The notes beneath the pieces were generated by a model. It was not told the DNA's origin and searched no databases. It was given only the letters and a program-made list of their open reading frames with translations. Of a DNA stretch of 64,000 bases, positions 9,984 to 63,556 are shown piece by piece; position 1 is the first letter of the stretch; each line of letters opens with the position of its first letter. The position numbers were made by a program, and so were the translations under genes. Source of the DNA: Branchiostoma floridae (taxonomy: Eukaryota > Chordata > Leptocardii > Amphioxiformes > Branchiostomatidae); the NCBI RefSeq assembly GCF_000003815.2, contig NC_049996.1, forward strand, positions 6,898,647 through 6,962,646, read 5' to 3'.

Positions 9984-10860
<877 letters not shown>

Positions 10861-11653
10861 GTGTGAATGGTGTTTAGAGTTACATAAATGATACTTACAC
10901 TTATTATTGATGTAAATTGATATGTTTGCGTTGATTTCATATGTGCAATTTTTTTCGGTGAGCTCTCCGTCCCTAGGTGGTCTGTGCTGTGTCACGCAAA
11001 CTCCGATTTCCGGGAGGTGTTGCTTTATCTGTCCCTATCCGGCGATTCAATCAATTTTACCCCTAAACCAGCTTATTTCATATAGAATAAGTAACGGTTA
11101 CTTCTATTGTGTCCTACTGAATTGCTTCTACCGCGAAATCAAGTTCCACTAAAGTGTACGGTTTCCAAAAAATACGAATATCGAGTATTTTTTTTTCTTT
11201 TAACGTTACATTTCAGCGTGTGGTCGTACAGAAGCCTACACGCAAAAACTTTGTTGGTAACAGAAATGTTCTACTCATTCTATAGCTGTATTTTGAGGTT
11301 GTTTAAAAACGGTTTCTGGGATTTGAGTTGTTTCTAATTGCATTAGTAACTCCAGACCAATCAGACAGGCCGTTTTGAACACCTGTGTAAAAACAAAAAC
11401 GTCTGGCGCAGTCCGTTCAAAATGGCGTTTCTGTACGAAAGGCATGCTCTGGAATTATTATTTTTTTGCAAACTTTCTAGTCCTCCTAAGAGTTTTTGTC
11501 GGTACAACGTTTATCCAAAGTGTGCAGCAAATCATTTGGAATTTACCACGGTGGATTCATGCCGCTCTCTGGATGTTTTGAGGAGAAAACGTGGGTTTCC
11601 TGCAGAACAGTGACTTGGTGAATTTGGAGAAGACAAGAAAATGGCGAGGCACG

Positions 11654-19439: not shown

Positions 19440-22400
19440 GCGCTTTTAGGGGCTGCCACGATTTCTTTCGTGTCCCCTAACTTGATGATTTTTAGTTGTT
19501 TGCTTATGTGTTTTAAGTTACTTTATGACCACACAAGCGTGTAAAGTACTGCTGAAGATGCTGGCAACTTGTTTGGATTGACTTTTACGTGCGACAGGCT
19601 GTTTTTGTGGTGATTCCTCGGACCTTTTCTGTGAACTGTTCACGACGAATCATCATGGCGTCGCTCAGGACCTACAGCGCTCTCTTTCTACGTGCCTGCC
19701 GGACTGCAACTAAGCCCCTGCTACCCCAAGAGAAGGCAACCCTGCGGGAGGTAGGCATTCTCAAGTCACTGGGTAGGCCTAGAGGCAGTAAAGGCGGAAT
19801 TCATCGTATAAGGAAAATTGAAACTGTTGTTGGGAACAGGCCATCTTCTCTGTTATGCAAATCTCACGTGCCGACTGTGGAATGTTCTGATGTGAAATGC
19901 CCTGTCCTGACTCGAATTCCTTTAACTCACCCGGCTAAGCCAAAACCATGTCTTCCTGGATTTCTGCTCACAAATGTTCGTGCTCTGCGCCACAAGACTG
20001 ACGAGCTTCACACCGTGTCCTGTATGAATAACGCGAGTATTGTGGCAGTCACGGAAACATGGCTGAAGGAAGACATTCCTGACGCGGTAATTGCGTTACC
20101 AGGATACGATGTTTACAGAAGGGACCGGGCAGCACGTAGAGGCGGCGGGGTGGCCATGTACATTCGTTCTGAGCTCCAGTGTAAGCGACTAGAGGATCTG
20201 GATCACGATGACCATGAAGCATTATGGATGTGGGTAAGGCCAAGTCGTCTCCCCCGTGGTTTTAACTCTCTGATCGTCGGTACTCTCTATATTCCACCGA
20301 AGTCATCAGACTCATCCAGGCCAGACACTGAGATATCGGAATACCTGGGACACTGTCTCGATCACATCGAGCGCAACTTCGCACAATCAGGTATAGTGAT
20401 CCTTGGAGACACCAACAGGTATAAATGCCAATCCCTGTGCTCGAGGTTCAGCTTGAAACAAGTAGTCACCCAAGCCACTAGAGGTGTTAACCAGCTTGAC
20501 TCTATTTACACTAACATTAAGTGTTTGTACCCTGCACCTGTTCATCTTCCGCCGATTGGTACCTCAGATCACCAGTCCATTCTACTGCCTGCTGGTTCAT
20601 GGCCATACACGCGTCCCAAGCACATCACGCGGAGGCAGTGTAATCCTGAAGCGATGAGGAGGTTGGGGTTACTGATGAACACAACTGATTTTGCACCTGT
20701 CTTCCAGACCACAGAGCCTTCCAGAAAGGTGGCAGTTCTGACAACCATGCTAAAAGGACTACTTGACAAAGCTGTACCTGTTAAGAAAGTCAAGATTTCC
20801 ACCGCTGATAAACCATGGATGACTGTGAGGATTAAGGAGTTGCTTGCAGAGAGACAACAGGCATTCCGCTCCGGAAACGTTGCTCTGTACTCCAAGTTAA
20901 GGAATTCTGTGGCCAAGCATATCAAGAAAGCAAAACGGGAGTACTATGAAAGAGAAGTAGCTAACTTGAGGCACTCCAGCCCAAGGCACTGGTTCAAGTC
21001 CATCAAGTCCCTTATGGGAAAGGACTCTGTTAAGGAGGATGTCTCCAATCCCAACATCACCGTGACACAAAATGAATGTGACACGCTTGCAGAGCATTTC
21101 GGGTCTGTGTGGAGTGAAGTGTTCCGTACTGTTCCAACGTTGGCTGATGTCGAGCACAAGCTCTCGCATGATACACCCACACCGTTCAGTATTGGGCAGG
21201 TTAAGGCCAGACTGCGCAGACTCAATGGGAGGAAAGCCGCTGGGCCAGACCTCATTCCTTCCTGGTTACTAAAGCAGTATCATGAAGAACTTGGTCCTGT
21301 TTTATGTGACGTCTTCAATTCTTGTCTTCAGAACTCCGCCTTTCCGCAGCAATGGAAAGAAGCTGTAGTCACGGCAGTGCCTAAGAAACAACGACCACAG
21401 TTCCCATCGGAATACCGACAAATTTCGTTAGTCAGCTGCGTCGGGAAAGTGTATGAAGGGCTGCTCCGTGATGCTTTGCTACAGGACACTACCAGTAGCC
21501 TCGCACAGTCTCAACATGGCTTCCTGTCAAGAAGATCTACGGTTACTGCGTTGATACACATCCTCCAAACGTGGCACGAAGCGTTAAACAGTAACCCGAA
21601 GTTGGACGTTCATGCTGTGTTCGTTGATTTTTCCCGTGCATTTGATACCATTAGTCATAGTCAACTGCTCATGTGCCTAGCTGACATGGGTATCAGGCGG
21701 TCCTTATGGATGAGCATCAGCAGCTATCTGGAAGGACGTACACAGAAGGTAAAGTGGGGTCCCTGTGTATCTAAGTCCCACGACGTCCTCGCGGGTGTTC
21801 CACAGGGTGGTATTCTATCACCAACACTTTTCGTCATCTGTATAAATACCTTGGATGCAAGGTTGCCAAGGCCCATTGTTCCTGTCAAATATGCGGACGA
21901 TCTGACAACCTCTGAAATGCTAATGGCGTCACTTCCTGGTCAAACGCAGAAGGCACTTGACTCCATTGTTGAATGGGGGGAGGACTACTCTCTCAAGGTA
22001 AACGGGAAAAAGACAATGGACATGGTTATCAGCGCAAGGAAGGAGGTAAACATTCCTGTCCCTCCTCATCCGACAATATCCGGACATGTGATTCAGAGGA
22101 CTACGTCTTTCAAACTACTTGGAGTACACATCACTGCCAACCTTACCTGGGATGAACACGTTCATTTCATGTTGACGAAGTCCCGTCCACGTGTGTATTA
22201 CCTTGCAGCAGCAAAGAAGGCTGGTCTCCCTACTGATGTCTTGCTCCAGATTTACCTAACATTCCTACGCCCCTTACTGGAGTATGCCAGTCCGGTGTGG
22301 GGAGGACTGCCGAAACACCTGTCAGACAAGCTAGAAGCCATGCAGAGGCGCTGTCTTAGAATCATTGGTATCCCATCTGACTCTCTGCCCTCACTATCAG

Positions 22401-22785
22401 ACAGACGGGACGCAGCGACGCTGAAGACTCTACAAGACATACTGCGGGACAGTAGCTCTCCGCTGAGGGAGTTCTTTACTTCACCTCAGGACATTTCGTA
22501 CAGTCTTCGTCGGGAAGCCCGATACAGGGCATCTAGAAGTAAAACGAAGCGACATGAGATGTCATTTGCACCCCGCTCTGTACGATTGCTGTACGAAAGT
22601 GCTAGATGATCGGCAAAGAATGTTGATTCTGTCATGTATATTTTCTTAATCCGATTGTTGTCTAATTTTAAATGTTGTAAATGTATTAATGTTTTAAAGT
22701 TGATTCTGTGACTGATGACGTATTTCATGTGTATATACATGCCAAGTCATCCAGGAATAAAGCTGAATCTGAATCTGAATCTCTT
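19440..22785 (+). mobile_element. Full-length-looking CR1/L2-like non-LTR retrotransposon
   Basis: The element contains one long ORF (endonuclease plus reverse transcriptase), a short 3' UTR with AATAAA at 22756, and a terminal (GAATCT)3 repeat at 22765-22782, typical of the 3' end of CR1/L2-type LINEs. The 5' border is not defined; about 19440 is a guess from the change to GC-richer sequence. No target-site duplication could be recognised. The base composition is clearly richer in GC than the neighbourhood. Confidence 0.9.
19589..22609 (+). CDS. LINE ORF: apurinic-type endonuclease and reverse transcriptase (1006 aa)
   Basis: The N-terminal endonuclease motifs are all present: LLTNVRAL, VTETWL (Glu), ILGDTN (Asp/Asn) and GTSDHQS (Asp-His). 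The reverse transcriptase has AAGPDLIPSWLL, YRQISLVSCVGK, SQHGFLSRRST, VFVDFSRAFDTISH (catalytic Asp), GVPQGGILSP, the YADD box (VKYADDLT) and FKLLGVHI. A C-terminal segment with SPVWGGLPKHL follows, as in CR1/L2-clade elements. There is no frameshift or internal stop. An in-frame ATG at 19655 (ATCATGG, MASLRTYS) has a better context than the first ATG and may be the true start. No separate ORF1 is visible upstream. The unbroken frame suggests recent insertion. Confidence 0.93.
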   Translation: MRQAVFVVIPRTFSVNCSRRIIMASLRTYSALFLRACRTATKPLLPQEKATLREVGILKSLGRPRGSKGGIHRIRKIETVVGNRPSSLLCKSHVPTVECSDVKCPVLTRIPLTHPAKPKPCLPGFLLTNVRALRHKTDELHTVSCMNNASIVAVTETWLKEDIPDAVIALPGYDVYRRDRAARRGGGVAMYIRSELQCKRLEDLDHDDHEALWMWVRPSRLPRGFNSLIVGTLYIPPKSSDSSRPDTEISEYLGHCLDHIERNFAQSGIVILGDTNRYKCQSLCSRFSLKQVVTQATRGVNQLDSIYTNIKCLYPAPVHLPPIGTSDHQSILLPAGSWPYTRPKHITRRQCNPEAMRRLGLLMNTTDFAPVFQTTEPSRKVAVLTTMLKGLLDKAVPVKKVKISTADKPWMTVRIKELLAERQQAFRSGNVALYSKLRNSVAKHIKKAKREYYEREVANLRHSSPRHWFKSIKSLMGKDSVKEDVSNPNITVTQNECDTLAEHFGSVWSEVFRTVPTLADVEHKLSHDTPTPFSIGQVKARLRRLNGRKAAGPDLIPSWLLKQYHEELGPVLCDVFNSCLQNSAFPQQWKEAVVTAVPKKQRPQFPSEYRQISLVSCVGKVYEGLLRDALLQDTTSSLAQSQHGFLSRRSTVTALIHILQTWHEALNSNPKLDVHAVFVDFSRAFDTISHSQLLMCLADMGIRRSLWMSISSYLEGRTQKVKWGPCVSKSHDVLAGVPQGGILSPTLFVICINTLDARLPRPIVPVKYADDLTTSEMLMASLPGQTQKALDSIVEWGEDYSLKVNGKKTMDMVISARKEVNIPVPPHPTISGHVIQRTTSFKLLGVHITANLTWDEHVHFMLTKSRPRVYYLAAAKKAGLPTDVLLQIYLTFLRPLLEYASPVWGGLPKHLSDKLEAMQRRCLRIIGIPSDSLPSLSDRRDAATLKTLQDILRDSSSPLREFFTSPQDISYSLRREARYRASRSKTKRHEMSFAPRSVRLLYESAR

Positions 22786-24480: not shown

Positions 24481-24529
24481 ACAGTCAAGTCCGATGTACT
24501 GAGATAGCTGACAGGGCCCACAGGCACAC

Positions 24530-25312
24530 AGGATAGCTGACAGGTCCCACAGGAACACAGACAGGTCCTCCTGGAATATGGACAGGCACACAGGATAGCT
24601 GACAGGTCCCACAGGAACACAAACAGGTCCTCCTGGAATATGGACAGGCACACAGGAGAGCTGACAGGTCCCACAGGAACACAGACAGGTCCTCCTGGAA
24701 TATAGACAGGCACACAGGATAGCTGACAGGTCCCACAGGAACACAGACAGGTCCTCCTGGAATATGGACAGGCACACAGGATAGCTGACAGGTCCCACAG
24801 GAACACAGACAGGTCCTCCTGGAATATGGACAGGCACACAGGATAGCTGACAGGTCCCACAGGAACACAGACAGGTCCTCCTGGAATATGGACATGCACA
24901 CAGGATAGCTGACAGGTCCCACAGGAACACAGACAGGTCCTCCTGGAATATGGACAGGCACACAGGATAGCTGACAGGTCCCACAGGAACACAGACAGGT
25001 CCTCCTGGAATATGGACAGGCACACAGGATAGCTGACAGGTCACACAGGAACACAGACAGGTCCTACTGGAATATGGACAGGCACACAGGATAGCTGACA
25101 GGTCCCACAGGAACACAGACAGGTCCTCCTGGAATATAGACAGGCACACAGGATAGCTGACAGGTCACACAGGAACACAGACAGGTCCTCCTGGAATACG
25201 GACAGGCACACAGGATAGCTGACAGGTCACACAGGAACACAGACAGGTCCTCCTGGAATACGGACAGGCACACAGGATACCTGACAGGTCCCACAGGAAC
25301 ACAGGAACATGG
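24530..25312. repeat. 62-bp minisatellite, about 12.5 copies
   Basis: The unit begins GACAGGTCCCACAGGAACAC and continues AGACAGGTCCTCCTGGAATA and TGGACAGGCACACAGGATAG plus CT. Copies differ by single bases (TCCCACAGG against TCACACAGG, for example), consistent with unequal exchange. Since 62 is not a multiple of three and the unit lacks minus-strand stops, all three minus frames stay open. Confidence 0.96.
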
Positions 25313-36055: not shown

Positions 36056-36767
36056 CCAACCCTGTAACCTTAAGCTTAAGCTTGATATCTGGAAATGTAG
36101 TCGATTACAAGTAACAGATAGAATATGATAAACCAGACCTACAGTTTCTTAACGTTAACACGTGGAGCCAGTAGCATACATTTACATCCTCACATTTAGT
36201 AATGCCTTGTAGACTACATATCACATTATGTAAACGCCGGTCAGAAAATAATTTCATTTATCGTGCAATGTTTCTGTAGACGTTTCCTTAAACAAAGATG
36301 GTGGAAGAACTATTACATGTATTATATTATATTTTATTCATGTACAGTATGTTGAACACAACCTTCGCGATCATCATTATGACATAGTATATTATGAAAT
36401 TTAATACGCATTTTATGTTTTTGCCCACTTTTTTGCGCGCACTCGCATCCCGCATCATCTATAGAATAAACGCGGTGTGGCCTAAAGTGACAATCTAAAA
36501 TGAGATTTTCTAGTTCCATGTTGATTCCATATTGTTACGGTGATTATAATTAGTACGTTTATTTTATTGATAATGCATAATTATGCAAGTTGACGTTTTG
36601 ATAACACGAAAAACACAGTTCACTGTACAATTCTCCCTCGTTTTGTTATAATGATACATTTTCAAATTTGATTCATTACAACTATAACGAAAATAGACAT
36701 ATTAAAGTATAGATCTTTTTTGTCACCTTACAAGATTAACAATTATGAGTTTTGATTTGTTTTACAG

Positions 36768-36875
36768 GTGAGCCAGCCGGCTGGTTGTCCGCCCTCCCCG
36801 ACTATAGGGAATAACAACCCTGCAGCAGACAGCGGCACAGACCGTTTAGACAGAACTTAGCTGTTATATAGTTTC
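36768..36875 (+). other. 5' leader of the LRR coding exon, starting at a splice acceptor
   Basis: A pyrimidine-rich acceptor (TTTGTTTTACAG) ends at 36767, so the coding exon begins inside a spliced transcript. The 108-nt leader is GC-rich at first and contains no ATG before the coding start at 36876 (the context is TTTC before ATGTCTAGC). A second in-frame ATG four codons later is an alternative start; either gives an intact signal peptide. Confidence 0.55.
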
Positions 36876-39800
36876 ATGTCTAGCATGTTAAATGTAGTAC
36901 AGCAGGTGGTAGTTGTTTTCACTATCCTTGTGAGTTGTGCAAATTTAGAACCGACATGTTTTCCTGGGTGCAAGAACACAGAATCCTGGTCATTCTGTTT
37001 TCCTAATAGTAAACCGTACTATGGGCCCAACGTTCAGAGAGGCACCTGTATACTATGCCCCACGCAGCTACAGAAACAGCCAGTACTAAAGAATTCCTCC
37101 CAACCAACCTCAACATGCCTCCCTAACAAGCGCCGTGTAGCCATTCGGGGGTTCTCGTTTGGGATACTGTCAGTTCAGAAACTACGACCACCACAGCAGT
37201 CGAAGATATATGACCTTTCTCTCGTTCAATGTGGAATCACAGATTTGGAACAGGGTGTTTTGGCAGAGTTTCCTGTATTGAAAGACCTGCAGCTCGACTT
37301 CAACAACGTAACTCATGTCAAGCAAACCTGGTTTTACGGTTTGAAGTATCCCTGGCTGTTCCGGACCCTGTCATTGTCACACAACAATATCAGTGATATG
37401 GATTCGAAATGCTTCCAAAATCTCACTTCCCTTGGCACATTACTACTGGACAATAACTCTTTGCAAAGTATCCACCCATCTTGGTTTCATAATCTGAAAT
37501 GGTTAGGCCATCTTTCTTTGAAATCAAATTTTATTGAAATCATCCCTCCACAGGCATTTAAGTCACTGGCACGGCTGTCACACCTGGATTTGAGCAGGAA
37601 TGTGTTGACATGTTTGTCAAGGGAAACTGTAGAGGGGCTACACAGACTTGACACACTGTCACTGGGTGGGAATAGGTTGTTTGCTCTCGATGATTCTGTC
37701 CATTTGGTACTTATGAACTGGTGGTTGGAATATCACCATGGTCTGTTTCAGGGCCATCGCGTTGCAGTAAGGGTTAACGAAGTGCTTTTCTGCATCACTG
37801 AAGTGGTCCAACTGAGGCAATTTTATCATGTCCAGATGCAACATGACACCCGCACACAGGCAGCTCGGCCAAGTGTGGAACCACTCAGTCAATGCATTTC
37901 TCTAAACCTGGGGCTTATAGGAACAAACCAAAGTAAGTACAGCCTGCCACTGATCGTTATATCAGTCAACACAGAATCAGACATACATGCTAAAAACATC
38001 ACCCATTTGTGCAAACATGCTTGGGAAAATGTCTCCCTTGTAAAGGTAGCGTTGCGGGGAGACATTACTCTGCAGATCGTTCCCATGGGTATAGACAGGT
38101 CCTGCAACCCCCAAATTGTTGCAATAGTTCTATCAGATGCCATCTCCAATGAAAACATGACCAAGCTGTATGCTGATAGACTCAGTAATAATGTCAGGGC
38201 CTTTGGTCATGAAGAAATGATGAATGTAACATGTTTGGTCAACACTTGGGCGGAGACCTACCAACACGTCTTCACCACACCCTTGTCCAGCACTCTTGAT
38301 GGCACTATGTGTGCAGAAAAGACCCAATCCACAAGGACCGTGTCCAGCGCTCCTGATGGCACCGTGTGTCCGAGAGAGGGGATGACTCTGACCACAAGAG
38401 AACCTAAGATCAAGACAACAAAGTTGACCCTGAATCAGACGAATCCCAGCACAAATGGAACTGTGAAGGAGAAATCCACACGTGTAGCGATCATCACAGT
38501 AGTTGTAATAGGGGTAGTACTGGTAGCGCTGTTTGTGATGTATGTTGTCAGAAGGCGTTCACGGGGCGACCAAGCACCGGCTGCCGGCTTCCTAGCAGGA
38601 GTCCATGGCACTACACCGGGTAGGACTACACAGCAGTCTTCATCTTCAGGTGATGATCCACAGTACAGTGTAATTCCTGACGAGTACTACAACCAGCGAA
38701 ACACTGGGACTTCTAGTGATTATAGTCAGATTCCTGACGAGTACTACAACTACTACAACACAAGACCAGGGGCGCAACATCCTTACTGGGAGATACCAGA
38801 TGAGTACTACAACTACTACAACACAAGACCATGGGCACAGCACCCTTACTGGGAGATACCAGATGAGTACTACAACGACTATTCTGTAAGGTTTAACATC
38901 ACTACAGCTGAGGTGGTCCTTCCTTCATCAACCAGGCTGGGCGGCAAACATCCAACCTACGATACAGCCCCTCAAGTCTGGAGAGACCCACAGAATTACC
39001 AGATACCTGCCCGTGGTCGTAATACAAACATCCGAACACATGTAATGCCTCAAAATGGCAACAGTCTCGGCCGATATATGGGTTTGATTGGTAACTACAG
39101 ATATAACAGGAGACGCCTATCATACCCTCTGACACTTCGTGTGCCGGAAGAGTATGAGAACTACTCTACAGGCTTTAATGCCAATAGCCCTGCAGCTGAG
39201 GTGGTCCTCCCTTCATCAACCAGGCTGGGTGGTAAACATCCATCCTACGATACAGCCCCTCAAGTCTGGAGAGACCCACAGAATTACCAGATACCCGCAC
39301 GTGGTCGTAATACAAACATCCGACCACATGTAATGCCTAAAAAAGGCAACAGTCTCCACCGATATATGGGTTTGATTGGTAACTACAAATACAAGAAGAG
39401 ACGCCTATCATACCCTCTGACACTTCGTGTGCCGGAAGAGTATGAGAACTACTCTACAGGCTTTAATGCCTCTATCACTACATCTGAGGTGGTCCTTTCT
39501 TCATCAACCAGACTGGGCGGCAAACATCCATCCTACGATACAGCCCCTCAAGTCTGGAGAGACCCACAGAATTACCAGATACCCGCACGTGGTCGTAATA
39601 CAAACATCAGAGCACAAGGAATGCCTGTAGCAGGCAGTAGTAGTGGCCCCCGGTATATGAGTTTAATCAGTGACTATAGCAAAACAACGAGAGCTGCAAA
39701 GTTCAGAATGCAGACAATGCCTCTCTACAACCCCCTTGCCCAGCACAGTAGACACCAGCGTAACGCAAAGTACCAGGCTTCACTTAAAGCTGAACCCACC

Positions 39801-39938
39801 GTCATTACCATTTCTCAAGGTCACAAGAGGGATAGCAACGGTCAAGTTCACAGGTCGAAAACTCTAGGGATTAAAGTATCAAAGTTAATGCAGGATGAGT
39901 CCACAAACAAGACAAGTCATCGCCGCCAGAGCGTTTAG
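36876..39938 (+). CDS. LRR type I membrane protein with tyrosine-rich repeat tail (1020 aa)
   Basis: One uninterrupted coding exon of 1020 residues. There is a signal peptide at about 1-24, a Cys-rich N-terminal cap (FPGCKNTESWSFCFP, then CILCP), and about six leucine-rich repeats at about 109-275 (for example LFRTLSLSHNNISDMDSKCF). A further ectodomain follows to about 536. A transmembrane helix at about 537-557 (VAIITVVVIGVVLVALFVMYVV) is followed by RRRSR as stop-transfer. The tail (about 460 residues) has four IPDEYYN units, then three 96-residue repeats containing STRLGGKHPSYDTAPQVW, PQNYQIPARGRN and YMGLIGNY. No kinase, TIR or Ig domain is visible. The architecture suggests a cell-surface adhesion or signalling receptor that docks SH2 proteins; ligand and pathway are unknown. 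I do not recognise a named orthologue. Confidence 0.9.
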   Translation: MSSMLNVVQQVVVVFTILVSCANLEPTCFPGCKNTESWSFCFPNSKPYYGPNVQRGTCILCPTQLQKQPVLKNSSQPTSTCLPNKRRVAIRGFSFGILSVQKLRPPQQSKIYDLSLVQCGITDLEQGVLAEFPVLKDLQLDFNNVTHVKQTWFYGLKYPWLFRTLSLSHNNISDMDSKCFQNLTSLGTLLLDNNSLQSIHPSWFHNLKWLGHLSLKSNFIEIIPPQAFKSLARLSHLDLSRNVLTCLSRETVEGLHRLDTLSLGGNRLFALDDSVHLVLMNWWLEYHHGLFQGHRVAVRVNEVLFCITEVVQLRQFYHVQMQHDTRTQAARPSVEPLSQCISLNLGLIGTNQSKYSLPLIVISVNTESDIHAKNITHLCKHAWENVSLVKVALRGDITLQIVPMGIDRSCNPQIVAIVLSDAISNENMTKLYADRLSNNVRAFGHEEMMNVTCLVNTWAETYQHVFTTPLSSTLDGTMCAEKTQSTRTVSSAPDGTVCPREGMTLTTREPKIKTTKLTLNQTNPSTNGTVKEKSTRVAIITVVVIGVVLVALFVMYVVRRRSRGDQAPAAGFLAGVHGTTPGRTTQQSSSSGDDPQYSVIPDEYYNQRNTGTSSDYSQIPDEYYNYYNTRPGAQHPYWEIPDEYYNYYNTRPWAQHPYWEIPDEYYNDYSVRFNITTAEVVLPSSTRLGGKHPTYDTAPQVWRDPQNYQIPARGRNTNIRTHVMPQNGNSLGRYMGLIGNYRYNRRRLSYPLTLRVPEEYENYSTGFNANSPAAEVVLPSSTRLGGKHPSYDTAPQVWRDPQNYQIPARGRNTNIRPHVMPKKGNSLHRYMGLIGNYKYKKRRLSYPLTLRVPEEYENYSTGFNASITTSEVVLSSSTRLGGKHPSYDTAPQVWRDPQNYQIPARGRNTNIRAQGMPVAGSSSGPRYMSLISDYSKTTRAAKFRMQTMPLYNPLAQHSRHQRNAKYQASLKAEPTVITISQGHKRDSNGQVHRSKTLGIKVSKLMQDESTNKTSHRRQSV

Positions 39939-58903: not shown

Positions 58904-61900
58904 ATGTTGCGCTCTGTGTTCGTTGTCGTCCTTCTATTATCACAAGGTAAGCTTTTGATTTTCTTTTTCCAGAAGTCTTTCTATAGTTGCTAAGCAGTGA
59001 CGTACCACAATAGATTTTTATTCTCACACATAGATTTTTTCTTTGTCTCAGAATAAGCAACAACGTTAGCATATAGTTGATAATGTATAACCAAATAATA
59101 TTTTAGCGTGGTATCCAAACTTATTATAGCTGCTGAGTTTTCTTCGTTCACTTTTCTTAGAGTATCAGCATCTTTAATAAAAAGCAGGGTGAGTATTACC
59201 ATCTTGATCAAAACTATGAAACAATAGGTTAAGCACGTTACTATCATTTCACTAAGCCACGATATCTCTATTGCCATACTATTTAGTAAAGCGAACAACA
59301 AAGGTTATATATAGAAATATAACTCTACGAATAAAACGCTAACGAATCAATGTTACTAAACAAAAGTTACATTTCTTCTAAGGGTTGAACAACCGATTGT
59401 TTCATAATGAAGATTTAGATCGACATTTAGAAAATTTACTCGGTAAAAGTTCTTGTTGCTACTCCCAAGAATCCAATGACTAATCTTTAAAACATGGTTA
59501 GACGATAAATCAGCACTTTCATATCGATCGAAGGTTGTTAATAGGAATTCCTGAACACTTAATAAGCTTTCCGGGTATGATTCACACGCCAAGTGGCCGT
59601 CAGTAAAATAGAAGCGTTTGAAATTCCATGACTTGGTTATGGTTATAATTAAAAGCGAGCAAAATGACGATAAAGCAATAGCATCACCATGTAGAAAGTG
59701 TTGAAAAATGACTTTGATTTATTCACGTTGCATTTTGAAAAGGACTTTCTAAAGTATGCCATAGGCGGGCGAATTGGTGCGAATCGCCACTTGACATTTG
59801 TACGGTTTAGCGGCACGGTCGATATTTGGCAATGCTTTATAAAAGTAGTGTATTATGTTCTAGTATAGTGGTACATAGATTATACTTAACACTTAGCCAT
59901 TTAGCTTGCCATTCCTTGCGCTTGATGTGTGTGTGTGGGTGGGGGGGGGGGGGTATGGGTGTTCGTAATTAGTTATGAAATTATCAAAATGAAAAGGGAG
60001 AAAGATTGAGAAACTTCAAAGCTTCCGCTATCGTTTTCTAGTCGTTTTGTACAGGTGTACCGTATACCTGGGTGGGTGAGTTTAAAGACTCAGGTGTTCC
60101 AACTTTAAACGTTGTAAAGTGAGAAGGGCTTAAAAGACAGGCGGACGTTTCATGTTAACAAGTACCAAACAACAGACAATGTAGGTCACCACTTAACAAA
60201 CTTCACACAAAGTCCGTCCACTCTTCAGCATCCGTGGGTCGTCTTCGAGTGTCTTGGGTGATGCCTTCTTTTCTTTAGAACCTTTGCGGCTACACTTAAG
60301 GAAGCAGGTGCTGTACACCTGTAGTTACTTAAAGACCACAAACTGACCTGTTCTTGAGTAAAGGTGTGTCCAAGTATTTACTAGTTAACAGAGTCAGACA
60401 AAAACGGGCACAAAACAGAATCGGGCTTATGAGCAAACATGTGTAATTTAAAGGGCAAAAATGTGGACGTCTTTTGGTTTCTATCTGCACCTCCAGCTAA
60501 CAGCATATCTACAGACATGTAAAATGTGTATAAAATTTATAATGTCAGCGTTTGGAAATACGATCAAGTAACTGACTTGATACATAGAACGTGTATAGCC
60601 TGGGTACCAGCCTTTGTAGTAACTGCTAGCTAAATCTTTTTCACTTGCTAACGTGTATCATTATATAGAAGACACATAGCATCACAGTCATGGGAACAAC
60701 TACAACTACCTATATTGGCCATTTTCTTCTAGCCTATACCAGACTGACTACGCTATCTATCAAAGCGATCTACCAGGGGAGTTTTGCTAACAGAGGAGTT
60801 GGAGGCTAACTATCTTCCGAAAAGCTGACAAAAGGGTTGGTTATCTGGAAGTAAATGGCATTGTCTGATAATGTCTTACGATTCGTTTCTTTTATTTTTT
60901 CCAGTAAACTGTAATGGAGGCGAAACAACAACAGCTAATGGTGTACAAGCTGGGCCTGTACCAGAGCTTTACGGGGGACCAACGCCGGTAGGTGAGGCAG
61001 AAATGGAGGCAGAGCCCGAGGGAACATCAGAACCGGAAGCAGAGCCCGAGGGAACATCAGAACCAGAGGCAGAGCCCGAGGGAACATCGGAACCGGAAAC
61101 AGAGCCCGAGGGAACATCGGAACCGGAAGCAGAGCCTGAGGGAACAACAGAACCAGAGGCAGAGCCCGAGGGAATATCGGAACCAGAAGCAGAGCCCGAG
61201 GGAACGTCAGAAGCAGAGCCCGAGGGAACATCGGAACCGGAAACAGAGCCCGAGGGAACATCGGAACCTGAAGCAGAGCCCGAGGGAACATCAGAACCAG
61301 GAGCAGAACCAGAGGGAACGTCAGAACCAGAAGCAGAGCCCGAGGGAACTTCAGAACCAGAAGCAGAGCCCGAGGGAACATCAGAACCAGAAGCAGAGCC
61401 CGAGGGAACTTCAGAACCAGGAGCAGAACCAGAGGGAACGTCAGAACCAGAAGCAGAGCCCGAGGGAACATCGGAACCAGAAGCAGAGCCCGAGGGAACA
61501 TCGGAACCAGAAGCAGAACCCGAGGGAACATCGGAACCCGAGGCAGAACCCGAGGTAACGTCAGAACCAGAGGCAGAGCCTGAGGGTGAGACGGAATCCG
61601 AGGCAGAGCCCGAGGGGGAGTCGGAACCAGAGGCAGAGCCCGAGGGGGAGTCGGAACCCGAGGCAGAGCCCGAGGGGGAGTCGGAACCCGAGGCAGAGCC
61701 CGAGGGGGAGTCGGAACCAGAGGCAGAGCCCGAGGGGGAGTCGGAACCAGAGGCAGAGCCCGAGGGGGAGTCAGAACCAGAAACAGAGCCCGAGAGCACG
61801 TCAGAACCAGAATCAGGAGTGAATCCTGAAGACCAAACCTCGGACATAGGAACAACAAAAGTGCCTGATCAGCGGAACACCAAACCAGGGGGTTCGACTC

Positions 61901-63556
61901 CAGGTATGTGAAATCGTATGTGGATACATATATATAGACTTTATTTGTCTGCAGTTGTATTTTACATTGGCCTTTTTCTGGAAGTTTGTTGATAATCTAT
62001 TGCCTCTGTTTCTATGCTTCAGACGAGCCAGAGAAACTGCTGGGATTCCAGCTAAGCCTGAACAAGACCTTCAACGAAAACTTGGAAGATCCGGAAACAA
62101 CGGAGTACAGGGATTTGGAAACACAGTTCATCGCCACAGTAAGTCTTATTTTAGAATGTAGGAAAGAAGTCAATAGATAGATCATTCGAAAACAAATGTG
62201 ACTAATCTTCCTTGTGTGTGTTACCATTATTTACTTTTGTTGGATTCTAATGCTGCTCTTGTGATTTCTTTTACTTGCCCCATAGTTCACAACCATCTAT
62301 GAAGGATTTGCTGGATTTAAGGGGATCAAAATCATTGGATTCAGGTAAGCCATTGCTACAATAGTTAACAAAGTCTGTTACCTTCCCTGCACTTCGAATT
62401 CACATTACCGCATGCGCACCAGTAACGAACCGTGATGAGGGGTGATAGTAACTTAGTCACGTTTGGGACCGAATTCTTTACACTGCAGTAGCGACACCTA
62501 GCTGCGGTGTGAAGTATTGCATGTCAGTATTGCATTGAGGAAGGTGACAGACACTCATCGATATGTCAGCTTGTAAAACATTTGGCTTGGTTGTGTAGAA
62601 ATACGCTTTATGATCCAATAATTTACCAATCTGATTAAACTTGTCACGGATCACTTCATAATCACACAAGCTGTTTTTGGATGGGCAGAATCCATTATTA
62701 GCCTGGGTACCATTCGTATTCTACCGGGCTCCTTGCACTCTAGGAGTGCAAGGAGCCCGGTAGAATACGGAGGGTACCCAGGCTATCCATTATATGCCGT
62801 ATCGAAAAATGATGCTTTTTCTCTGCGATTTCGGTCATGTACAATGAATCTACATTAGTAACAACATCTTTCCCTGCAGTGCAGGAAGCGTTATTGTGGA
62901 CTACGTAGTCATTTTTGCTGCCGACGAAGCACCCTCGGATGACGTCATCACCAGCAGTGTACAAGAAACGGTGAGTTCTCTGCTGAGTAACGGAACGAGT
63001 GGAGATGACGTCAGCAATCTGGGGGTTACCATGGAAACAGTGGGGACGCTGAGGCGGATGCAACTGTCCCAAGAAGGTATGTGCGCGTCTCTATCTCTTT
63101 TATAACCGTTATTTATAAACTGTATATACATCGTTGAGCCTGTATGTTAGACCTTTTCATATCTGTATTATAGTCTTTTTCTAGAGCTACGTTTTATAAC
63201 AGTTTTGGGGGAATAACCCATTCTGAACATCTGAAACTTGCAGCTGTTCTTATGATCCTATCATTGAACGGTACCACAAATCAATGAGGTTAAAAACTTT
63301 TTTCAATATCCTTGCACAAATAAAGCAGGAGAATTTTCACTCGAGGAAGTAGGAGCAAGCTAATGCATTGTATCCATTTACCAGCTCTGCAGGGTCTGAG
63401 TGGCAGCGCCCTCTGTAGCCTCTCGTGTGGAACTGCAGCGTCCTGTACGTTGCGTGACGTGTACGGTACGCTAGTGGCGGAATGCAGGTGTGACGACGGC
63501 TACTGTCACAACGGCGGCACGTGTGCGTTCATACAAGGAACGGGACCGGTCTGTCG
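58904..63556 (+). CDS. Mucin-like SEA/EGF protein with acidic decapeptide repeats (3' end partial)
   Basis: Exons are 58904-58946, 60905-61903, 62023-62138, 62286-62344, 62880-63076 and 63385-63556, all with GT-AG borders and matching phases (1, 1, 0, 2, 1). Exon 1 is a signal peptide ([14 protein letters not shown]). Exon 2 (residues 15-348) is almost entirely [10 protein letters not shown]-type repeats. Exons 3-5 form a SEA domain (about 350-470) with [14 protein letters not shown], the GSVVV-like site at which SEA domains cleave themselves, between G408 and S409. Exon 6 is Cys-rich and EGF-like ([14 protein letters not shown]). The donor TCG|GTACAA at 63556 suggests more exons beyond. If it is not used, a stop follows at 63588-63590. 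MUC- or IMPG-like shed surface proteins share this order, with a membrane segment expected further on. Confidence 0.8.
58947..60904 (+). other. Intron 1 of the mucin-like gene
   Basis: A 1.96-kb intron between the signal-peptide exon and the repeat exon. It contains a G run at 59941-59953 and a lone TAGCCTGGGTACC end at 60596. No other coding frame is supported. Confidence 0.7.
60596..60612 (+). mobile_element. Lone TAGCCTGGGTACCAG end of the same hairpin family
   Basis: The sequence TAGCCTGGGTACCAG matches the left terminus of the 62.7-kb element exactly for 13 bp. A matching right end was not found within 200 bp, so this is a fragment or a diverged copy in intron 1 of the mucin-like gene. 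Confidence 0.4.
61005..61800 (+). repeat. 30-bp tandem repeat coding acidic decapeptides in the mucin-like gene
   Basis: About 27 copies of a 30-bp unit encode E/P-rich decapeptides. The upstream part has [10 protein letters not shown], while copies after about 61590 switch to [10 protein letters not shown]. One copy near 61210 is shortened by two codons, and all indels keep the frame. The repeat contributes Thr/Ser sites but is mainly Glu and Pro, so the segment should be extended and highly negative. Because the unit is a multiple of three, long open frames appear on both strands here as shadows. Confidence 0.95.
62699..62785. mobile_element. 87-bp near-perfect hairpin element with 8-bp target duplication (hAT-like)
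   Basis: The two arms are about 42 bp each (TAGCCTGGGTACC, then CGTATTCTACCGGGCTCC and TTGCACTC) with almost no loop and only a couple of mismatches. TCCATTAT is duplicated exactly on both sides (62691-62698 and 62786-62793). An 8-bp duplication is characteristic of hAT transposons. It sits in intron 4 of the mucin-like gene, about 90 bp before exon 5. Confidence 0.9.

Follow-up and report, generated by a model that had tools for sequence, protein, structure and literature searches.

A family of amphioxus leucine-rich repeat transmembrane proteins with a conserved YxxIPD tyrosine module in a candidate docking tail

In the 64,000-nucleotide stretch of Branchiostoma floridae DNA analysed here (the window), one gene encodes what is, by its sequence, a leucine-rich repeat (LRR) transmembrane protein with a single membrane segment and a cytosolic tail. 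A tyrosine module, YxxIPD, is repeated in this tail and recurs in the tails of many paralogs. We propose, at even confidence, that the tail acts as a multivalent phosphorylation-dependent docking scaffold on a germline-encoded LRR receptor, primed by a Src-family kinase and offering YxN motifs to Grb2/GADS-type adaptors.

As shown in Table 1, the gene (the query, locus L001) has a single coding exon, and positions 36861–39938 (+) of the window were translated as one open frame. The LRR_8 score in Pfam was 101.7 bits against a cut-off of 27, and 12 N-glycosylation sequons and 17 cysteines were counted from the ATG to the N-terminal side of the membrane segment. The tail (462 residues, 38550 to 39935) was hydrophilic, with a mean hydropathy of -1.06 versus -0.13 for the ectodomain, contained 8.4% tyrosine and had no cysteine. 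An earlier note on this DNA had placed the tail at 38640..39620; this interval holds the motifs, but the tail continues to 39935. No kinase domain was detected in a Pfam scan of the whole frame, so the protein does not qualify as a receptor tyrosine kinase, and the same note's picture of a surface LRR protein that lacks a kinase and has a tail of repeated, multivalent phosphotyrosine-type motifs was upheld, with LRR and membrane segment assigned by sequence.

Paralogs were sought in the 513-Mb, 431-contig assembly. dN/dS was below 1 in both ectodomain and tail between the query and L042, L043 and L046, and likewise across 13 pairs, with one exception: L025/L027, a near-identical pair whose ectodomains gave 1.37. 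The putative 5′UTR acceptor was read solely from genomic sequence; it or a close variant preceded the ATG in 9 of 12 loci inspected and was not seen in L020, L037 and L055. This shared acceptor speaks for DNA-level duplication, and an origin of the single-exon genes as processed retrocopies was not favoured.

Table 1. Features of the query gene and its predicted protein (positions in the window)
Feature	Position	Strand	Basis
Putative 3′ splice site (CAG) of a 5′UTR intron; exon begins GTGAGCCAGCCGG	36766..36767	+	Paralog comparison
CDS, 1020 aa, single coding exon	36876..39938, stop included	+	Translation; dN/dS <1
Probable signal peptide, about aa 1–24	36876..36947	+	Hydrophobic N-terminus by eye
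LRR region	37203..37679	+	Pfam LRR_8 E 1.8e-29; PDB sequence matches to LRR proteins
Transmembrane helix, aa 538–558, then RRRSR	38487..38549	+	Hydropathy 3.09 over 21 residues
Four Y-x-x-I-P-D-E-Y-Y-N modules (YSVI, YSQI, YWEI, YWEI), with 6 of 8 YxN	38664..38885	+	Family-wide conservation
Three 96-aa repeats, each with KHP(S/T)YDTAPQVWRDPQNYQIPARG	38895..39758	+	Repeat analysis, paralog counts
RRLSYP, R-x-x-S-x-P site 1	39111..39128	+	Motif scan
EEYEN 1	39147..39161	+	Y at 4/28 equivalent family positions
RRLSYP, R-x-x-S-x-P site 2	39399..39416	+	Motif scan
EEYEN 2	39435..39449	+	Y at 4/28 equivalent family positions
C-terminal RRQSV-COOH (R-x-x-S-x-COOH)	39921..39935	+	Translation; motif search
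Candidate phosphotyrosine stretches of the tail: YSQIPDEYYNYYN, YWEIPDEYYNYYN, YDTAP, NYQIPARG			

Every tail motif counted in the earlier note was found and given a coordinate: eight YxN, at aa 604, 623, 626, 644, 647 and 665 (four DEYYN units, of which two have a second YYN) and at aa 760 and 856 (two EEYEN); three YQIP at aa 708, 804 and 900; and three YDTAP at aa 695, 791 and 887. Four YxxIP sites (aa 597, 616, 637 and 658) were absent from its list, which also lacked R-x-x-S-x-P (the two RRLSYP) and the C-terminal RRQSV. DEYYN was carried by units of 57/63 nt at 38671–38881, and YDTAP and YQIP by 288-nt units at 38895–39758. To estimate chance expectations, the 462-residue tail was shuffled 5000 times with its composition preserved. 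YxN occurred 8 times against 2.70 expected (13 of 5000 shuffles reached 8); YxxP (3 versus 3.15; 3168 of 5000) and Y-x-x-[IVL] (8 versus 5.17; 631 of 5000) were not enriched by number. Since all raw motif counts are inflated by tandem duplication, conservation among paralogs was the better test.

Forty-seven loci were handled, of which 39 had a membrane segment and tail in one frame and 8 were dropped before tail counts; 35 loci entered the feature table and tree, and four fetched loci (L049, L053, L054 and L057) were left out as non-family. Modules were located with an anchor that excludes tyrosines, I-[PEGT]-[DE], and the neighbouring residues were then read, the I of YxxI being fixed by this choice; 120 anchors were found in the 39 tails, a few of them (in L024, L043, L046 and L056) plainly not modules. 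The residue at I-3 was Y in 112 of the 120 anchors and F in 2, whereas Y stood there in 0 of 52 cases with the same anchor in ectodomains and in 0 of 46 with [VLMA]-type anchors in tails. At the YYN pair the first position was Y at 88 and F at 12 of the 120 anchors, and the second Y at 82 and F at 24. Over the same anchors the YxxIPD tyrosine codon had a nonsynonymous difference of 0.063, and the two YYN codons had 0.256 and 0.259; synonymous differences were 0.61–0.79. A set of 114 modules preselected for Y/F gave a nonsynonymous value of 0.013, which is biased by that selection and was not used. Phenylalanine at the last YYN position was seen in 17 loci that fall on several distinct branches of the tree; at the YxxIPD tyrosine it was confined to the sister pair L013/L017. 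By these comparisons the YxxIPD tyrosine is kept as tyrosine, whereas several clades may have a different aromatic residue at the YYN pair. Conservation here means conservation between paralogs of one genome, some of them near-identical (L037/L039, L025/L027), and the sequence counts, Fisher values included, describe related sequences rather than independent events.

The module persisted in members with 25–29% ectodomain identity, at 1 to 7 copies per tail, and its tyrosine was kept in the distant L036 and L038, whose tails have no YxN. The earlier note had made YxN the core of the design; with the YxxIPD tyrosine more constrained and present in tails devoid of YxN, this emphasis was at best weakly supported. 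W was the commonest residue at Y+1 (60 of 112 module sites), and E/Q occupied Y+2 in 95 of 112. Over the 39 tails Y-x-[EQD]-[IVL] was counted 99 times versus 16 expected, YxN 174 versus 51 and YxxP 63 versus 71.

Within the query's clade other tyrosines were conserved as well. All 38 cases of [KQ]HP[ST], which came from 18 of the 39 tails, were followed by Y; 29 of these, from 9 loci, read YD[TA]AP. In a table of the 29 YD[TA]AP units Y is 29/29 by construction, and the later anchor leaves the tyrosine out. All 28 cases of [WR]RD.QN(x)Q, from 8 tails, had Y at (x). For YxxP, the NYQIP tyrosine was conserved in the clade, but the number of motifs in the query (3 versus 3.15) was not above chance. 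The core KHPSYDTAPQVWRDPQNYQIPARG had a pN of 0.044 and a pS of 0.225, compared with 0.271 and 0.378 for the rest of the unit. The tyrosine columns of this unit had a mean conservation of 0.771, equal to that of the other columns, indicating that only particular tyrosines are conserved and not tyrosines generally. Constraint on particular tyrosines was supported among paralogs for those of YxxIPD, YDTAP and YQIP. It was largely lacking for the two EEYEN, put forward as Grb2-type sites: tyrosine was found at 4 of 28 equivalent places after the R(R/P)LSYP segment, twice in the query and once each in L046 and L047, where the form is QNYEN, and other members had H, D, G, N, K or similar. The earlier note had named tyrosines lost among close species within otherwise conserved surroundings as one sign against docking, and this is largely what the paralogs showed at EEYEN.

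Serine motifs accompany the tyrosines. R-x-x-S-x-P, which in the query tail we take to be 14-3-3 mode I-like, was counted 83 times over the 39 tails versus 8 expected. In L036 and 5 of 6 sampled relatives R-x-L-P-x-[L/I]-P, presumably an SH3-ligand-like pattern, lay amid the YxxIP sites; in the sixth relative, L062, the longest frame spans the distal tail alone. In the distal tails of L059–L064 a unit resembling TYWPWEIPGEGTRNTPRRASLPLVTLPN was present in 5 to 10 in-frame copies, with YWPW and RRASLP-like sites both repeated. A juxtamembrane CC was present in 12 of 35 family members. The query's C-terminus, HRRQSV-stop, fits by sequence the mode III 14-3-3 consensus R-x-x-S/T-x-COOH, whose phosphorylated form is R-x-x-pS/pT-x-COOH (PMC4760375). 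A scan of 51 loci for this motif returned 26 rows, and the reversed control 8. We judge 22 of the 26 to be genuine loci with homologous surroundings, the first residue being R in 19 and H in 3, and the other 4 to be chance matches. Strictly, 10 of 35 full frames ended in R-x-x-S-x, and 13 of 35 in a looser form. In L014, L015 and L046 an RRQSI/HRQSI motif lay past a stop codon, and these tails may have been shortened recently.

Protein searches of the same genome, with matches joined at 3 kb, gave 42 place clusters for the query, 47 for the divergent L055 and 43 for L036. Joined at 3, 4 or 6 kb, their union comprised 97, 93 or 87 clusters, spread over 22 contigs. Each search scored its best candidates only, and the counts used 53 of 64, 48 of 60 and 43 of 134 rows, later partial matches being left out. 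Some of the closely spaced clusters are fragments of a single broken gene and others are true neighbours, and a few may be LRR cross-hits. Back-translated YW[EQ]IPD matched 134 places in the genome (reversed control 0), and among the 100 matches listed 64 lay inside family clusters. Four sites outside the clusters were sampled: three were further LRR transmembrane members, so the family is probably larger, and one, L067, was in no long frame. The query belongs to a dispersed family of about ninety candidate loci, probably more, and is not, as the earlier note had suggested, unusual as a single gene. Sites encoding IPDEYY numbered 77 genome-wide (reversed control 0); a non-family origin of this sequence was rejected, with 73 of the 77 in family loci and the other 4 in frames of <=50 aa.

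The ectodomain nearest to that of the query was found in L043 (86% identity), whereas the tail of L043 was best matched by L022 (44%); between the query and L043 identity fell from 0.88 to 0.39 directly past the membrane segment. L043 (G000:C18:12897000-12902500) is a mosaic paralog with its break at that segment, and this single case suggests that recombination or conversion can join the ectodomain of one receptor to the tail of another. A separate observation concerns L042, in which an LRR stretch at about residues 120–180 was 55% identical to the query between flanks of 92% and 87%; conversion or diversifying selection could account for it.

LAT, LAB and LAX are lymphocyte scaffolds, and LAT has a very short ectodomain, whereas the query has a large LRR ectodomain and a tail without a palmitoylation cysteine next to the membrane segment. 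The ectodomain of CD6, another possible comparison, is of the SRCR type. The scaffolds resemble the query in having several YxN in one tail, with variable Grb2 valence (PMC3291652). CD6, like the query, is a kinase-less surface receptor with YxN; when phosphorylated this motif binds the SH2 domains of GADS and GRB2 at micromolar affinity, and a second tyrosine site acts jointly with it, one YxN being discussed in the available passages on CD6 versus eight in the query (PMC5440646). The Src SH2 domain prefers pYEEI, the core of an assay probe being EPQ(pY)EEIP, and that of Grb2 is tightly bound by pYVNV (PMC2888578). Several family modules look like the Src ligand: EPQYSEIP in L009, L016 and L018, EQQYEEIP in L029 and HSYEEIP in L036. 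They differ from it at +1, which is E in pYEEI and mostly W (60/112) in the family.

The closest studied receptor is BbLcLRR of Branchiostoma belcheri (GenBank MW390887), which, in the available passages of its report, was present in Lck immunoprecipitates and was tyrosine-phosphorylated by Lck (PMC8211107). It likewise has an LRR ectodomain, one membrane segment and a kinase-less tail with several tyrosines (DDYATV, HDYSEV, HDYDDP), two of them of the YxxV type; unlike the query it has 699 aa, three mapped tail tyrosines, and WSC and LRRCT domains by SMART. The YxxIPDEYYN array, YDTAP and NYQIP of the query are not mentioned in those passages. Two further amphioxus LRR proteins, the VLR-like Bf66946 (PMC4731796) and FrLRR (PMC10199209), have proposed immune roles, as would the query; FrLRR was present in Grb2 immunoprecipitates and is predicted to be GPI-anchored (PMC10199209). 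The main text on Bf66946 makes no use of the words 'cytoplasmic', 'transmembrane' and 'tyrosine' (PMC4731796), and the available passages on the two proteins describe no YxN tail (PMC4731796, PMC10199209). Open-licence PMC text contained no report of IPDEYY, YWEIPDE, YSEIPDE or YWQIPDE, nor of amphioxus, LRR, ITIM and Grb2 jointly. Amphioxus LRR receptors with tyrosine tails are known in kind, and neither the composite module nor the tail of this family was found in print there.

The phosphorylation of BbLcLRR by Lck, the YxN precedents of CD6 and LAT and the likeness to pYEEI together favour a Src-family-primed docking tail. For the query we infer phosphorylation, partners and their order, the sign of the signal and an immune role. 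Ligand binding or clustering would bring an Lck-like Src-family kinase to the receptor; the kinase would phosphorylate, and be retained by, the Y-[S/W]-[E/Q]-I-P sites (pY-x-E-I type), and could then phosphorylate the DEYYN tyrosine pair 7–8 residues downstream. Phosphorylated YxN might hold several Grb2/GADS-type adaptors at once, with YDTAP and NYQIP as extra clade-specific phosphotyrosine sites. Basophilic kinases and 14-3-3 proteins, acting on R-x-x-S-x-P and the C-terminal R-x-x-S-x-COOH, may control surface delivery or tail availability. Several paralogs have F in place of one or both YYN tyrosines, so not every copy can depend on YxN docking. The genome has genes for SH2 proteins (60 exon hits) and 14-3-3 proteins (21 hits). 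At G000:C8:15588068-15597410 three near-full-length, uninterrupted 14-3-3 matches lay near one another, one with an internal stop.

The module might instead belong to an inhibitory receptor in which phosphorylated YxxI recruits SH2 phosphatases of the SHIP/SHP2 type, a reading we regard as unlikely. BbLcLRR, the nearest studied receptor, was found in association with SHIP1 and, to a lesser degree, SHP1/2; in Jurkat cells it inhibits the activation of NF-kappaB, an effect probably mediated by SHIP1/SHP (PMC8211107). Its YSEV resembles the YSEI/YSQI of the query's family, although the two receptors are likened by their described features. A site of ITIM pattern occurs in 10 of 39 tails and once in the query, as SDYSQI, but the ITIM residues I/V/L/S stood at Y-2 in just 5 of 112 module sites, and a canonical ITIM as the nature of the module was rejected on this count. 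Furthermore, YxN and doubled YYN are, to our knowledge, not phosphatase-type motifs. ITSM-pattern sites occurred in 8 of 39 tails; the ITAM, YxxI/L-x(6-8)-YxxI/L, was rejected, with 0 of 39.

Equally unlikely, in our view, is a trafficking tail, in which Y-x-x-I would be a repeated YxxΦ signal read unphosphorylated by AP-2, with the serine motifs and 14-3-3 setting delivery. The fixity of Y and of I at +3, the two most fixed residues, is explained equally well in this way. The near-absence of F at the YxxIPD tyrosine (2/120) fits AP-2 recognition as well as it fits phosphorylation. The C-terminal R-x-x-S-x-COOH is shared with the potassium channels TASK-1 and TASK-3, where it controls surface transport and reads K-R-R-S/K-S-V versus H-R-R-Q-S-V in the query (PMC4760375); the channels are unrelated to the query, whose 14-3-3 site is putative. 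Trafficking leaves unexplained the DEYYN, YDTAP and NYQIP tyrosines, E/Q at Y+2 (95/112) and the 1 to 7 copies per tail. That unstable tandem coding DNA spread tyrosine-rich units by duplication or gene conversion with little function per site is very unlikely: copy number runs from 1 to 7, units are homogenised and the EEYEN form is found in the query alone, in two of its units, but the YxxIPD tyrosine changes little while synonymous positions vary, the module persists at 25–29% ectodomain identity and control anchors lack Y.

Vertebrate immunoreceptors use ITAM and ITIM tyrosine motifs, the origin of which is debated. We tentatively suggest that some ninety or more germline-encoded LRR receptors of a basal chordate share one composite tail, in which repeated pY-x-E/Q-I-P serves a Src-family kinase, and that ectodomains and tails have been exchanged from time to time. 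Clade-specific additions to such a tail would be YYN/YxN for adaptors, R-x-L-P-x-L-P for SH3 domains, and R-x-x-S-x-P and C-terminal sites for 14-3-3. If so, this receptor repertoire would signal through tyrosines in the manner of immunoreceptors but with neither ITAM nor canonical ITIM, in a lineage that already has an LRR receptor reported as an Lck substrate. The family offers a testable gene set on Src-kinase receptor signalling before, or beside, ITAM and ITIM.

Elsewhere in the window, a 1017-aa open frame at 19556–22609 (+) belonged to a non-LTR retrotransposon, with a reverse transcriptase domain above the Pfam cut-off and an endonuclease-type domain slightly below it. The frame at 60829–61911 (+) was built on a 30-bp tandem repeat (27 copies) and resembled an acidic repeat protein, its one Pfam match, to PARP, being sub-threshold. 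A 62-bp tandem repeat of 12.7 copies with 97% matches occupied 24520–25304. At 9984–10874 CA/TG runs were found together with related 43–48-bp repeats that have CAGGCAAACATGCCTG or its complement in their units, and by its sequence this region looks like a large inverted repeat.
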